Below are positions 2,644 through 20,331 of a stretch of DNA of 64,000 nucleotides, piece after piece; the stretch's first letter is position 1, and every line of letters begins with the position of its first letter. The position numbers and the translations under genes are program-made. The notes beneath the pieces were generated by a model that was given only the letters and a program-made list of their open reading frames with translations, was not told the DNA's origin and did not search any database. This DNA comes from Spiroplasma helicoides (lineage in GTDB: Bacteria; Bacillota_I; Bacilli_A; Mycoplasmatales; Mycoplasmataceae), in the NCBI RefSeq assembly GCF_001715535.1, contig NZ_CP017015.1:1240001-1304000 (forward strand), read 5' to 3'.

Positions 2644-3831
2644 TTATTTGATGATTGAAACAACTGTTCCGGCACCTATAGTTCTTCCACCTTCACGGAT
2701 TGAGAATTTTGTTCCTTGTTCAACAGCAATTGGTTTAATTAATTCAACTATTAATTCAACGTTATCCCCAGGCATAACCATATCTACACCTTCTGGCAAT
2801 TTTACTTCTCCTGTAACATCTGTTGTACGGAAGTAGAATTGAGGACGGTATTTGTTAAAGAATGGTTTGTGACGTCCACCTTCTTCTTGTGTTAAAGCAT
2901 AAACTGATGCATTTAATTGAGTATGAGGTTTAATTGAACCTGGTTTTGCAAGAACTTGCCCACGTTCAATATCTTCTCTGTTAACCCCTCTTAATAATGC
3001 TCCAACGTTATCTCCAGCTTCAGCAAAGTCTAGTAATTTTCTAAACATTTCTAATCCTGTAACAACAACTTTTTTACTTTCTTCTACTAATCCAACGATT
3101 TCAACTTCTTCGTTAACTTTAACTACTCCTCTTTCAACTCTACCTGTAGCAACTGTTCCACGTCCTGTGATTGTGAATACGTCTTCTACTGGCATTAAGA
3201 AAGTTTTGTCTTTATCACGAGCAGGTGTTGGAATGTATGCATCAACAGCATCCATTAACTCTTCTACTTTAGAAACTCATTTTGCGTCACCTTCAAGTGC
3301 TTTAAGAGCTGAACCTTTAATAACAGGTGCTCCATCTCCATCAAATTCGTAGCTTGATAATAAATCTCTAACTTCCATTTCAACAAGATCGATTAGTTCT
3401 TCGTCGTCAACCATATCACATTTATTTAAAAATACAACAATAGCAGGTACTCCAACTTGTCTTGATAATAAAATGTGTTCTCTAGTTTGAGGCATTGGTC
3501 CATCTGTTGCAGCAACAACTAAGATTGCTCCATCCATTTGTGCAGCTCCTGTAATCATGTTTTTAACATAATCGGCATGCCCAGGACAATCCACGTGTGC
3601 GTAGTGTCTTTTGTCTGTTTTATATTCAACGTGAGTTGTGTTAATTGTAATTCCACGTTCTCTTTCTTCTGGAGCATTATCAATGTTTGCGTAATCTTTA
3701 AATTCTGCTCCCCCTTTGTCAGCTAATACTTTAGTAATAGCAGCTGTTAATGTAGTTTTACCGTGGTCAACGTGTCCGATTGTTCCAATGTTAACGTGAG
3801 GTAAACTACGGTCAAATGATTCTTTTGCCAT
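2644..3831 (-). CDS. tuf: Translation elongation factor Tu
   Basis: GTPase that delivers aminoacyl-tRNA to the ribosomal A site. 395 residues, the usual family length. G1 is [10 protein letters not shown]3 is DCPGHADY, G4 is NKCDM, and the C-terminal beta-barrel ends in VVSIIK. One in-frame TGA encodes a conserved Trp. ATG at 3831 is the start: it gives MAKESFDR and has AAAGGAA nine bases upstream, whereas a TTG at 3840 would swallow that site. It follows fusA by 107 bp without a clear terminator, so it can be read from the str operon, though its own promoter in the gap is possible. Confidence 0.98.
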
Positions 3832-11838: not shown

Positions 11839-14010
11839 CTATATTACACAAGCATCGCAATCGTATTTTTCACTGTCTTCTAATACTTCTTGTCTAACTC
11901 TTACGTAGTATATTGAAGCACAGCCTTGTTTGAAAGCTTTTATATATGCTTTGTTTAGGTCTCTTGTTGTTACAGTATCTTTCATAAATAATGTTAATGA
12001 TATGGCTTGGTCAACATGTTGTTGTGCTGCAGCTGCAATATCAATAATTGGATCCGGTCCAACTTCATATGCTCCCAGTGCATAGTAACTCATGTTTTCA
12101 AAACTAATGTTATATGCGGGAACATATACTCTACCAAGTTTTCCTTCTTTTCTAACTTCAACCGGTGAAACAACTGGTTGTAAACTTGGTGTACATGATG
12201 ATAAATAACTTATTGAACCTGTTGGAGCAACTGCCATCAAATGTGAGTTTGCAATTCCGTTTACTTTGATGTCTTCAACTAAGTTAACTCAGTCTTGTTT
12301 AGTTGGTATTGATACATTGTATTTTTCAAATAATTCTTTAACAGTTGAAGTTTCTGGTGTTCATTTTGAATCATCGCATGAAGTGTATTTCTCAAAATAA
12401 CTACCATCAGCAAATGATGACTCTTTAAAAGTTGAGAATGGTCCGTATTCTTTAGCTAATTTATTTGAAGCTTTGAATGCGTGATATGCCATTGTGTAAA
12501 AGAACATGTTTGTAAAGTCAACAGCTTCTTTTGAATTGTAGTAAATAAAGTTTGTTGCTAAGAATCCATGTAGATTCATTGCCCCCAAACCAACTGCGTG
12601 ATTACTTTTATTTCCTTTTTGGATTGATGGTGCACTTTGTAGGTTTGTTGAACGTGAAACATAATCTAAAGAATAAATTGATCTAAATACAACATCTTCA
12701 AACTCTTGTCCACTTTCCATAACCTTAGCAATGTTTAAACTTCCAAGGTTACAACAAATGTCTTCTCCTACTTTTTTAAATGATAGATCTTCATTGTATT
12801 CACTTGGAGTACTTACTTGTACAATTTCACTACACAAGTTACTCATAACAATTCTTCCTGTTGATGCATGTGCATTTCTATTGTTTACAGTATCGTCAAA
12901 TAAAATGTAAGGATATCCACTTTCAAAATGTAATTCTGCTATTGTTTGAAATAACTTTCTAGCATTAATATATGTTTTTTTGATTTCAGGATTTTTAACC
13001 ATGTTGTGATATTCTTTTGTAATTGAAATATCTGACATTGGTTTACCATAAACTCTTTCAACATCATATGGACTAAATAAAGCCATTTCTTCGTTGTTTT
13101 TTGCTAGTTCAAAAGTAATATCTGGTATTACAACTCCTAGTGATAATGATTTAATACGAATTTTTTCATCAGCATTTTCTCTTTTAGTATCCAAGAAGCT
13201 CATTATGTCTGGGTGATGAGCTTGTAAATAAACAGCTCCAGCACCTTGTCTTTGACCTAATTGATTTGCATATGAAAATGAATCTTCTAATATTTTCATA
13301 ACTGGAATTACACCTGTTGCTTGGTTAGCAATTTGTTTAATTGGAGCCCCATATTCTCTAAGGTTGGTTAAACAAACAGCAACTCCTCCACCACGTTTTG
13401 ATAGTTGTAAAGATGTAGTAACAGCTCTACTAATTGATTCCATGTTATCTTCCACTCTAATCAAATAACATGAAACATATTCTCCACGTTGTTTTTTACC
13501 AGCATTTAAAAATGTTGGTGTTGCTGGTTGAAATCTACCTAGCATAATTTGTTTTAAAATTGCTTTTGCAACATCAAAATTTCCATTTCCTAAGAACAAA
13601 GCATTCATAACAACTCTGTCTTCATAATTTTCTAGATATTTTTTTCCATCAAATGTTTTTAATCCGTATGCATTATAAAATTTTAATGCACCCATAAAAC
13701 TTGGAAACTCTCTTTTAAATGAATAAGCTTCTTTTGTTAAGTGATCAATTTGATCCATAGTATATTTTTCAATTACTTCTTTTTCATAGTAATCGTTTTC
13801 TAATAAATATTTTATTCTTTCTTCAGTTGAATTAAAGTTTACAGTATTTGGTTTAACATGATTTTCCAAGTATTTTTTGGCAGCCTCTACATCAAGTTTA
13901 AAATTATCTTTTCCTTTTTCTGTAAACATTTTTGACTTAGCATTTAATGTAATGTATTCATCAGATTCATTATTTCCTGATAAGCTTACAACTTTTTTAT
14001 TAGTATCCAT
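11839..14010 (-). CDS. nrdE: Ribonucleotide reductase class Ib/Ie, large subunit
   Basis: Reduces ribonucleoside diphosphates to deoxy forms, receiving a radical from NrdF. 723 residues, family length. Visible: [22 protein letters not shown] with one of the active-site cysteines, the glycine-rich [23 protein letters not shown] around the thiyl-radical Cys, and [12 protein letters not shown]. The C-terminus ends DCDACVI, the swinging CxxC pair that is re-reduced by a thioredoxin-type partner. Trp residues are TGA. The ATG at 14010 is preceded by AGGAGATATT; an upstream in-frame start would overlap nrdI. It is the last gene of nrdF-nrdI-nrdE, which ends at a strong hairpin. Confidence 0.97.
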
Positions 14011-14477: not shown

Positions 14478-15500
14478 TTAAAACTCTCAATCCTCATCAA
14501 TTGTCTCTTCAGTCACACCCATAATATATGAAGAACCATTTCCTGAGAAAAAGTCATGGTTCTCATCAGTTCTTGCTGATAATTGAGTAAATATTTCTGG
14601 TTCAATTCTTGTTTCTTCTTCTGTGAAAGGTGAATCGTATCCTAAATTTTGTAAAAATTTCCCTGCGTTATACACACTAAATCTTATAGCATCATCAGCT
14701 AACCCAAAACCATCATACAACTCGATCAAATATTTTTTTTCTAAGTCAATTAATTTGTATAACAAGTCGAAAACAAATTCTTTCATTTCTTTTTGTTTTT
14801 CAGGACTTAGTTTTTCCACTTTTCTTTGGAATTTATACCCACTGTAATAATTGTGAATAACTTTATCCCTTAGAATAAGTCTTATTATATCAGAAGTATT
14901 TGGTAACTTGCCTCTTGCTGATAAGTAGAAAGGTAAATAGAATCCCCCATATAATAAAAACCCTGGCATTAGTGCCGCTGCAACCTTTGATTTTAAAGGA
15001 TCTTTACCTGTATAGTAAGGAATTAAAATATCTGCTCTTTCTTGTAGAGATTGTGTATTAATAACTCACTCATGAGCTTCTTCAATTTGTTCACTTGAAC
15101 ATAAAGTTGAGAATATTGTTCCATAACTTCTTGCGTGAACCGCAACCATAAACGCAAAATTAGTATAAATAACTTGCTCATGATCTGTAAGTGAGTGATC
15201 TATTTGAGCAATATCTCCAATAGTAGCCTGTATCGTATCCAACAAAGTTAACCCCGTGAATGTTCTTGTTATTAATTGTTGTCATTCTGGAGTTAATTCT
15301 GATCATGATTTTAAATCATTAGATACTGGTACTTTTTCTGGTAACCAAAAGTTTTGAGTTATTCTATTTCATACTTCTAAATCTTTTTCATCATTGATAA
15401 CGTTTCAGTTAACTGACCTCATTTTGCCCTTAAATCCATTTAATGCATACTCAAGTGGTGAAACTGATTCGTTGTAGTAACTATTCTTTTGTTTTGCCAT
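14478..15500 (-). CDS. nrdF: Ribonucleotide reductase small subunit, VPK (metal-free class Ie) type
   Basis: Radical-generating beta subunit, 340 residues, made first in the operon from AAGGAA plus ATG at 15500. The six usual metal ligands are Asp, Glu, His, Glu, Glu, His. Here Asp88 (TLLDTIQ), His122 and His216 remain, but the three Glu are replaced: Val119 in AFMVAVHARSYG, Pro179 in AALMPGFLLYGGF and Lys213 in LILRDKVIHNYY. This V-P-K set defines the class Ie enzymes described from Mesoplasma florum and other mollicutes, which use a DOPA radical formed on a tyrosine instead of a metal-tyrosyl radical. Tyr126, four residues after His122, is the likely modified residue. I checked all three substitutions codon by codon. 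Trp codons are mostly TGA, with one TGG at residue 52. Confidence 0.95.
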
Positions 15501-15884
15501 GCGAATAATTCCTTCCTTATACTTCATAAAACTTTAAATTTTTAAATTTAAAGTAGTAAATAAATTTTTATTTATTACCAACTAAAAAGCCAATATAAGT
15601 TGTTTTTTAATTTTTGCACAATTAAAAATGCCCTAACAAATTTTATACTCAACTTTAAATTGTATGATTAGGAGGGAAAAGCGGGCAAAAAAACGCTTGT
15701 TATTTTAGAATTAGTAAAGAAAAATAGTTAATACGCTTTAATTATTGCTTTAATTTGCTGTATCACTTTTCCAAGCTATAAGCTGATCCTTCTCATCCAA
15801 ACTATTTAGTTGTAAAGTTATATTACTATATATTTAGAAAAAAACAATTTTATTTTTGAAATGTTTTAAGAAAAATTTATAGTT
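15501..15884. other. 384-bp intergenic region upstream of nrdF
   Basis: The only gene-free stretch above 300 bp. It holds a perfect AT palindrome at 15531-15554 (ACTTTAAATTT with its complement, two bases between), a second palindromic stretch at 15557-15577, and a further copy of ACTTTAAATT near 15652, which could be operators for the nrd operon. AAGCG/CGCTT arms occur near 15680. I see no ORF over 20 codons, no tRNA and no clear NrdR box; the nrd promoter must lie here but I could not place it with confidence. Confidence 0.55.
15531..15554. promoter_or_regulatory. AT palindrome in the nrd upstream region
   Basis: Perfect 11-bp arms ACTTTAAATTT/AAATTTAAAGT with a two-base centre, about 30-55 bp before the nrdF ATG. 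A candidate operator or leader hairpin; in AT-rich DNA it may also be chance. Confidence 0.35.
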
Positions 15885-16617: not shown

Positions 16618-19600
16618 CTATTTTTGGTTATAAACATGTCTTTTTGTTAATGAATCAATTATGGTTTTTGAATTTTCTTCCACTTTTTGTGCATTTACTT
16701 TGCTAGTAATTTTGTCTAGCTGTGAAGTAATTATTGTGAATTGCTCTTTCAAAGCATCTATAACATTTTTGTTATCTAACGAACTAATAGCACTTTCAAG
16801 TCTATCCATACGTTTTTCAAGTTCTAAAATCATTGAGTTGTCCATTACATTTTTTGTAGGTTTGATTGATACTGCTTGTGATATTGATTGTTGTATTAGT
16901 GATGCTTTAGGTAAACTTGCTACCACTGATACGTTCTTAGTATTACGGTTTATTTCATCAGTAATTATTTGTGCTTTAATATCAGGTTGAATTATATCAT
17001 TATAAGTCTCAAAACTTGGAATTGGGGCACTAGATGCACCATTATCTAAAAACTTACTTAATTCTTTATCTAACTCTTGCTTTGTTAAATCTTCGTCCAT
17101 GATGTGTTTGTCAGAATATATAGTATCTACATCAGCATTAGAACTTTGTTCAACCTGTTTTATAGTGTTAACATCTTCATTAATGCTGTTTATATCCATA
17201 CCTTTGTGCACATCATCTTTTAATATATCTTGTGTAAATTCTGGTTTTGAATTAAAAGCTAAATTCTTAATGTAATCATTTTTAGGATTATTGTATTCTT
17301 CTTGTTTTTCGGTATAAACTTGCTTTGTTAGATCTTCGTCCATGATGTTTTTGTCAGAGTATATAGTATCTGTGTCGGCATTAAAACTTTGTTCAACCTG
17401 TTTTATAGTGTTAACATCTTCATTAATGCTGTTTATATCCATACCTTTGTGCACATCATCTTTTAATATATCTTGTGTAAATTCTGGTTTTGAATTAAAA
17501 GCTAAATTCTTAATGTAATCATTTTTAGGATTATTGTATTCTTCTTGTTTTTCGGTATAAACTTGCTTTGTTAAATCTTCGTCCATGATGTTTTTGTCAG
17601 AATATATAGTATCTGTGTCGGCATTAAAACTTTGTTCAACCTGTTTTATAGTGTTAACATCTTCATTAATGCTGTTTATATCCATACCTTTGTGCACATC
17701 ATCTTTTAATATATCTTGTGTAAATTCTGGTTTTGAATTAAAAGCTAAATTCTTAATGTAATCAATTTTAGGATTATTGTATTCTTCTTGTTTTGAAGCA
17801 TAAACTTGCTTTGTTAAATCTTCGTCCATGATGTGTTTGTCAGAATATATAGTATCTGTGTCAGCGTTGGGTAATTGCTCAACGCTTGGTACTTTACTAA
17901 TGTCATCATTTACACTATCTAGTTTAATACCTTTATATATTTCATCATTTACTTTATTTAAAGCTTCTTTTGTTTCGTTTTGTTCAATCTCTTGTGTAGG
18001 AGCGAACGCAAAGTCCATAATGTGATCTTTTTTAGGACTATTGTATTTTTTTTGTGCATCCTCATATGCTTTTTTTGTTAAATCAACATCCATAAAGTTT
18101 TTATCTGAATAAATGGTGTTAACATCTGCATTTGATATGTCATCAATTTTCGGGAAATTTGAAGTATCTTCATTTATACTTGTTAACAATATTCCTTTAT
18201 ATATAGCATCTCTTTTTGCGACATCTTCTTTATTTGTGTCATTAGAATTTGATACAACAAATTTTAAATCTTGTTCACTTGAAGTTTCTGTGTTGAAGTG
18301 ACCAAATGGGACTTTACTTTCAAAATCTTGAGCAAATTGTTCGTCACTCATATTTGTATCAATTTCTTTGTTGTCATCTTCAATTGATTGATCTCTAAAA
18401 GCATATGGTAAATTTGATTGAATTCGTTCATTGCTTAGTTTTGCTATTCTATCATTTTCAGTTTTTTCTAGCGCAATATTCAATAAGTTTTTTTCTTTAA
18501 CTTTTTTATCTGTATAAATATCTTTGGAATTTACATTAGCATCCTCAGTAATTGGTGTTAATGAATTAACATCAACATTTATTGCATACGCCATCAAATC
18601 TCTTAAGTCATTAATGTACTGACTTTTATCTTTATATTGGGAATCCACATTATTATTTGGTAATTCAAAACCTTTTAGTATAGATTCGTTTGCTGCTTCT
18701 GAAGCTATCTCATCATCATTAAATGCATTTGTAACTTTTTCGATTGGAGAAGATTTAGTAATTTCTTCTTTGATTGATTTGTCATCCTCTTTAGAAAGTT
18801 TTTTATCTTCATTTTTTGAAAATTTTGCATTAAATTTTTCTTGTTTTGCAGCTTGTTTTGCAGCTTTTTTAGCTTGTTTTGCAGCTTTTTTAGCTTGAGA
18901 CTTTGTAAGAATTATGTAATCTTCTTGCTCTTCTGTAGAATCAATATCATCAATTGAGTTCTCTTCGTTTGATTCAAGATTTATTTCTTGGTCATCAAAA
19001 TCTCTTTCATTATCAGAGCTTTCTTCGCTTAATTTTTGTTCTAATGGTTCAATTTCTTTTTCTTCAACTTGATCCATTCCTTCTTCAAGAGAATCAAAAT
19101 CGATATTTAAATCCTCAATATTAGTTACTTTTTCTTCAACAACGTCTTCAACTTCATGTTCTATTTCAGTATCTTCTTGTTTAATATCTTTCATTTTAAT
19201 TGATGTATCTTCATCAAGTTCTTTCAACATTTGTTTTTTAGCTTCTTTAGCTTCTTTAACGGCTTTTTTTGCGTTAAGTTTTTCTTGTTTAGCCTGTAAC
19301 TTAGCTTCTTTTTTACTTAAAGGAGCTTCAACTTCATGTTCAATCTGGATTGATTGATCTGCGTTTTTTACATCTTCAATAGCGATGTATGATAAATAAA
19401 ACTCTGATGGTATTTTCAACTTCTCAGCTTTTTTATTCAGACTTTCAATTTTTTTATTAAAGTCATTTACAGTTTTTTCTTTTTTACTGTCGCTTAAATT
19501 ATCCAAGTTGTAAACAACAACTTGTTTTGTAGCTTCAAGTTTATCTTTTTCAAATTTTCATTTATCAAATTTTTTGTCAACTTTTTTATGTATACTTGTG

Positions 19601-20331
19601 TCAATTTTACTATTAACACTAGAAGATACTTCAAGAGTATCTTCTTTTAATATATTTGGGTTTGGCAACGCAGAACTATCATTTGTGTTTGCTTTCTCAT
19701 TTTGGTCCAGCATATTTTTTTGATGTTTTAGTTTTAATGCTTCCAAATCTACGTTGCCAGTTAGCTTTCCCTCTTTGCTTACCTCTTTTTCAAATTTTTT
19801 CTCTTCTTTATATATAGCAATCAAGTTTCTTTCTTCTGCATAGTTGTTTAATGCTTCAGAGTCAAATAATACACCTTCTAATAGCAATCACGCAACTATC
19901 AATGCTGCTGCAAGAATGATTGTTATTACTTGTCCGTATAATAAACCAAATATTGGTAATAATACAAGAACTGATTTTATGTATGGTTTTGATATTTTTT
20001 GTCTTTTTTTCGCTCTAACTAGTTCAATTATTGCAATTATGTATAGCATTAACGCTATAGCCATCATTACTGCTCCTGCAATTATTGTACCAGTGCTTGA
20101 CATACTTGTAAATTGGTCTTGTCCATCTACTTCATCTATTCTAAGTGATGTATCTCCTTTTGTAAAGAATCCCACTCCGAATGGCTGCTTAGATAGTATT
20201 TTAAAAATAGCTTTAACTATTGCAACACCAGATCACATATTATGAGTTATTACTAATGCTCCAAATGCAAGAAGCAATGTAGAACTCACAATAACTATGG
20301 ATCAGGCGAATATAATAAGTATTAAAAACAT
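16618..20331 (-). CDS. Giant membrane-anchored repeat protein
   Basis: 1237 residues, not recognised. Residues 1-130 hold three or four membrane helices (MFLILIIFAWSIVIV at the start, later TGTIIAGAVMMAIALMLYII). A charged region follows with Lys/Ala-rich coiled-coil stretches (AKKAAKQAKKAAKQAAKQ) and acidic tracts. Residues of about 650-1080 contain six units ending in DTIYSDKxxMDxDLTK; three are almost identical 81-residue copies. A final coiled coil (LELEKRMDRLESAISSL) closes it. Three TGA Trp codons lie inside. The ATG at 20331 has AGGGGG eight bases before it and starts two bases after the stop of the 807-residue gene, so the two are translationally coupled. A large cytoplasmic scaffold tethered to the membrane is plausible, but the function is unknown. 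Confidence 0.8.
17077..17860 (-). repeat. Three tandem 243-bp in-frame repeats
   Basis: Unit ends (CTTCGTCCAT) recur at 17100, 17343, 17586 and 17829, an exact 243-bp period encoding 81 residues. The copies differ at only a few bases, which suggests recent duplication or gene conversion. More diverged units extend to about 18560. Confidence 0.9.

Follow-up and report, generated by a model that had tools for sequence, protein, structure and literature searches.

A VPK-type class Ie ribonucleotide reductase operon, very probably functional, in a Spiroplasma helicoides genome that also carries two class III reductases

Does Spiroplasma helicoides make its DNA precursors in air with a ribonucleotide reductase (RNR) whose small subunit binds no metal? 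The question is raised by nrdF in a 64,000-nucleotide stretch of contig NZ_CP017015.1 (positions 1,240,001 to 1,304,000, here the window). The gene lies on the minus strand at 14478-15500, with its ATG at 15500 and its stop at 14478. It encodes a full-length small subunit (R2) of 340 aa matching Pfam PF00268, and the frame is open only if TGA, present as six codons, is read as Trp.

Residues 88, 119, 122, 126, 179, 213 and 216, read from the translation, are D, V, H, Y, P, K and H, and all seven stand where the initial annotation had placed them. Val119 (GTT, 15144-15146), Pro179 (CCA, 14964-14966) and Lys213 (AAA, 14862-14864) occupy the places of the usual metal-ligand Glu. Retained are Asp88 (15237-15239), a carboxylate that acts as proton switch in a DFT model (PMC8902622), His122 (15135-15137) and His216 (14853-14855), and the codon TAT at 15123-15125 specifies Tyr126, the residue made into DOPA in the R2e of Mesoplasma florum (PMC7615503, PMC8902622). 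The other residues checked from the mechanism papers, Trp52, Leu84, Gln91, Tyr163, Leu183 and Phe187, are kept as well; Gln91, Tyr163, Leu183, Phe187 and Trp52 are those to which the paper on the radical-state structure draws attention (PMC7615503). The four carboxylate and two His ligands of class Ib are thus incomplete, E being replaced at V119, P179 and K213. The exchange of three ligand Glu for Val, Pro and Lys, with Tyr at the DOPA position and D88, H122 and H216 kept, is the VPK pattern of class Ie.

The closest solved structure is 6gp2, the active M. florum R2 (PMC8902622). The alignment, which had been proposed as a check, is gapless across 340/340 residues with 302 identities (~89%, counted from the printed alignment; 1.3e-208) and has no Glu at the three positions. 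Asp88, Val119, His122, Tyr126, Lys213 and Trp52 bear the same numbers in M. florum (PMC8902622), so that the number 126 given for its tyrosine in the initial annotation was correct, as was the reading of V/P/K as a mark of the M. florum-type class Ie enzyme. This orthologue is metal-free and active (PMC11846895, PMC7615503), carries a DOPA radical and depends on NrdI for its activation. With 89% identity to it, the S. helicoides NrdF almost certainly uses the same metal-free DOPA chemistry.

The two partners follow on the same strand in the order nrdF (15500-14478), nrdI (14474-14019), nrdE (14010-11839), with spacers of 3 bases between nrdF and nrdI and 8 bases between nrdI and nrdE. This is the published order of class Ie VPK loci, found in virtually all species that have the enzyme (PMC11846895), and the support that the initial annotation drew from it is well founded. 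nrdI encodes a flavodoxin-like activase of 151 aa (TIGR00333, 183 bits against a cut-off of 74.65; PF07972), the expected supplier of a superoxide or hydroperoxyl oxidant; its closest solved counterparts are 6ebq and 7mmp, the latter a solved entry in which R2 and NrdI chains occur together. nrdE, with its ATG at 14010, encodes a class Ib-type catalytic subunit R1 of 723 aa (TIGR04170, 1002 bits; PF02867) with intact motifs: N391-x-C393-x-E395, the pair Y701-Y702 and a C-terminal CDAC (C-x-x-C). Since the genome contains one thioredoxin and no match to a glutaredoxin-like NrdH, thioredoxin is probably the reductant of NrdE, and NrdH/glutaredoxin was rejected for this role.

Upstream of the operon, 15501-15884 (minus strand) is its probable regulatory region, in which promoter-like and NrdR-box-like sites are at chance level. 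Promoter and terminator scans likewise stayed at chance level, and Rfam gave no match in the window. Even the best NrdR-box-like sites have two mismatches; they are dispersed over the AT-rich window, and none form a pair ahead of nrdF. The genome also showed no NrdR protein, and control of the operon by NrdR was rejected on these grounds. Farther upstream, at 16618-20331 on the minus strand, lies an open reading frame of 1237 aa whose N-terminus is membrane-like and which contains several almost identical repeats (TIYSDK..MDEDLTKQVY.. KPEFTQDILKDDVHKGMDINSINEDV).

The residue pattern was followed through 52 relatives from named genomes and through 60 genomes of the family of S. helicoides. Only three of the 52 relatives, Pectobacterium, Aliivibrio and Mycoplasma haemofelis (class Ib-like), have Glu at all three positions, and all others have VPK. 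R2 is present in 40 of the 60 family genomes, always as VPK and with the same twelve mechanism residues (40/40). As all close relatives carry V/P/K, neither chance nor sequencing error accounts for it. Across 78 loci the codons vary only synonymously (GTT, GTA, GTG or GTC for V; CCA, CCT or CCG for P; AAA or AAG for K), which argues that selection maintains these residues. The order nrdF-nrdI-nrdE is seen at 81/81 VPK loci, copies of the window's own locus included, and at 0/3 E/E/E loci. A split with 100/100 support divides the tree into 81 VPK rows and three E/E/E rows, with long branches, an unsettled bootstrap and no QSK rows. The window nrdF groups with two same-genus genes (99/89), the nearest 92% identical; deeper nodes are poorly resolved, and long branches lead to the outgroups. 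The idea that nrdF came from a phage was rejected, since its best phage matches reach 55-56% identity against the 92% of the nearest same-genus gene.

Could the protein still be a normal class Ib NrdF, with Mn2 or Fe2 held by the remaining ligands or by an alternative set? D88, H122 and H216 are kept, NrdI and NrdE are class Ib-like, and NCBIfam names NrdF class 1b; the label extends to the whole NrdF/NrdI/NrdE set, and among the matches there is no separate class Ie model. However, three of the four carboxylates are gone, one of them now a Lys, the class Ib relatives found keep E/E/E, and the 89% identical M. florum protein works without metal, which together make metal binding of this kind highly improbable. 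The VPK-type class Ie reading, with a functional nrdF-nrdI-nrdE operon and a metal-free, NrdI-activated DOPA radical at Tyr126, is by our analysis very nearly certain.

Under the published model for class Ie (PMC11846895, PMC7615503, PMC8902622), the flavin of NrdI would react with O2 to give superoxide or HO2, which would pass through a channel between NrdI and R2 to the former metal site of NrdF. There Tyr126 would be hydroxylated to DOPA and then oxidised to the DOPA radical. No metal would be bound at this site, because three carboxylate ligands have given way to Val119, Pro179 and Lys213, the last of which would fill the space. The radical would travel via Lys213 and Trp52 to the tyrosine pair of NrdE and there generate a thiyl radical, by which ribonucleoside diphosphates would be reduced, and thioredoxin would re-reduce NrdE.

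In the genome, a single contig of 1,326,546 bases that is 99.96% complete, there is one R2 and one alpha subunit of class I/II type, and a class II enzyme is absent; class I is therefore represented by the class Ie enzyme alone. Two genes for the oxygen-sensitive class III NrdD are present too, each adjoining a gene for an Fe-S radical-SAM activase. One belongs to a standard nrdD-nrdG pair of 712 and 168 aa (L054, 1399-4046, at ~433 kb in the genome), and this 712-aa nrdD is common to many same-genus genomes. The other is short, with 566 aa (L055, 1495-3195), overlaps its radical-SAM activase (3173-3631) and lies at ~1,036.9-1,039.0 kb. It is the only second intact class III copy among the 60 family genomes and adjoins a deoxynucleoside-kinase-like gene, named from sequence alone; its best phage match, to the uncultured gut phage NatCom_17901, is 53.5% identical, which suggests that the gene was acquired from a mobile element. 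The genome showed no Fe/Mn superoxide dismutase, and a literature search on nrdD and ribonucleotide reductase in Spiroplasma returned no paper.

To judge from these genes, metal-dependent anaerobic routes to dNTPs are present in the organism as well. The initial annotation had concluded that dNTPs are made without iron or manganese in NrdF. For NrdF itself this is upheld by the close orthology, but as a general metal-free supply it does not stand: given the two class III reductases, metal-free synthesis is the expected aerobic route of the cell and not its sole one. The class Ie enzyme could even be dispensable under anoxia. We give about even weight to an arrangement in which the metal-free class Ie enzyme would serve where O2 is present and the Fe-S-activated class III enzymes where it is absent, the short phage-like nrdD, absent from the other family genomes examined, having perhaps come from a phage.

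The two nrdD-nrdG pairs are also what would favour an inactive or decaying R2, with the class III reductases or salvage supplying the dNTPs. Against this stand an intact frame with conserved mechanism residues and only synonymous codon change in relatives, intact NrdI and NrdE, and at least six same-genus genomes in which the VPK enzyme is present and class III gave no match (G029, G033, G038, G039, G042 and G045); such decay is thus just as improbable as a metal-binding class Ib protein. As the sole R2, paired with the sole class I alpha subunit of a nearly complete genome, nrdF would be the aerobic source of dNTPs and not a relic.

Within the family, ten of the 60 genomes lack R2 and have a more distant alpha subunit instead. 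Three of these were checked and contain B12-dependent class II reductases (NF005991, 1247-1320 bits), located at L096 1480-4023 in G004, L097 2643-5177 in G014 and L098 1404-3881 in G048. In G048 the product of the gene that follows the class II gene carries a corrinoid adenosyltransferase domain fused behind a membrane part at its N-terminus; other neighbours resemble ECF-type transporter components. No class I R2, class I/II alpha subunit or class III NrdD was matched in ten further genomes, 94-99% complete (G001, G002, G015, G017, G020, G021, G025, G026, G051 and G053), which apparently have no RNR and therefore probably rely on salvage or on something missed by the searches. G019 has a class III nrdD pseudogene with many stops (contig 1, 136562-138460), its VPK nrdF and a second alpha subunit being intact.

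John et al. 2025 (PMC11846895) count 128 GTDB species with VPK class Ie enzymes, of which 93 belong to the Mycoplasmatales, and about half of the species with VPK class Ie have other RNRs too (PMC11846895). With 93 such Mycoplasmatales species published and the same gene order, the S. helicoides NrdF is an unexceptional representative of an established enzyme class. The metal-free enzyme lets host-dwelling bacteria make DNA precursors when their hosts withhold Fe and Mn. Its chemistry, residue signature, operon order and distribution in Mycoplasmatales are already published, and the present locus is one more well-supported example. The useful addition is the RNR context of the family, in which many species combine VPK class Ie with class III, and several that lack class Ie have B12-dependent class II, making it a good system for the study of RNR class swaps.

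Among known systems, the M. florum class Ie R2 (MfR2, 6GP2 and related entries) shares the V119/P179/K213/Y126 numbering and the nrdF-nrdI-nrdE operon type, and no mechanism-related difference from it was found. The genomes differ in that S. helicoides has class III reductases, whereas none was matched in the 7 genomes of genus g7, apparently Mesoplasma to judge from the match of L002 to L061. The R2e-VPK of 7mmp, 7mmr and 6ebo (E ~1e-183), co-solved with its NrdI and presumably from Aerococcus urinae, also keeps VPK in the printed alignment but is more distant from the S. helicoides NrdF than the M. florum R2 is; its NrdI carries, just behind the PTY-GG motif, a short insertion that the NrdI of the window lacks. 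Class Ib NrdF proteins (Mn2-Y or Fe2-Y; Pectobacterium L051, Aliivibrio L052) share the fold, the dependence on NrdI and the NrdE partner, but they carry E/E/E in loci of the order I-E-F and are only ~52% identical to the NrdF described here. The R2e-QSK of Gardnerella/Bifidobacterium vaginale shares the metal-free DOPA chemistry (PMC11846895), but it has Q/S/K instead of V/P/K and its genes never occur in the order F-I-E (PMC11846895).
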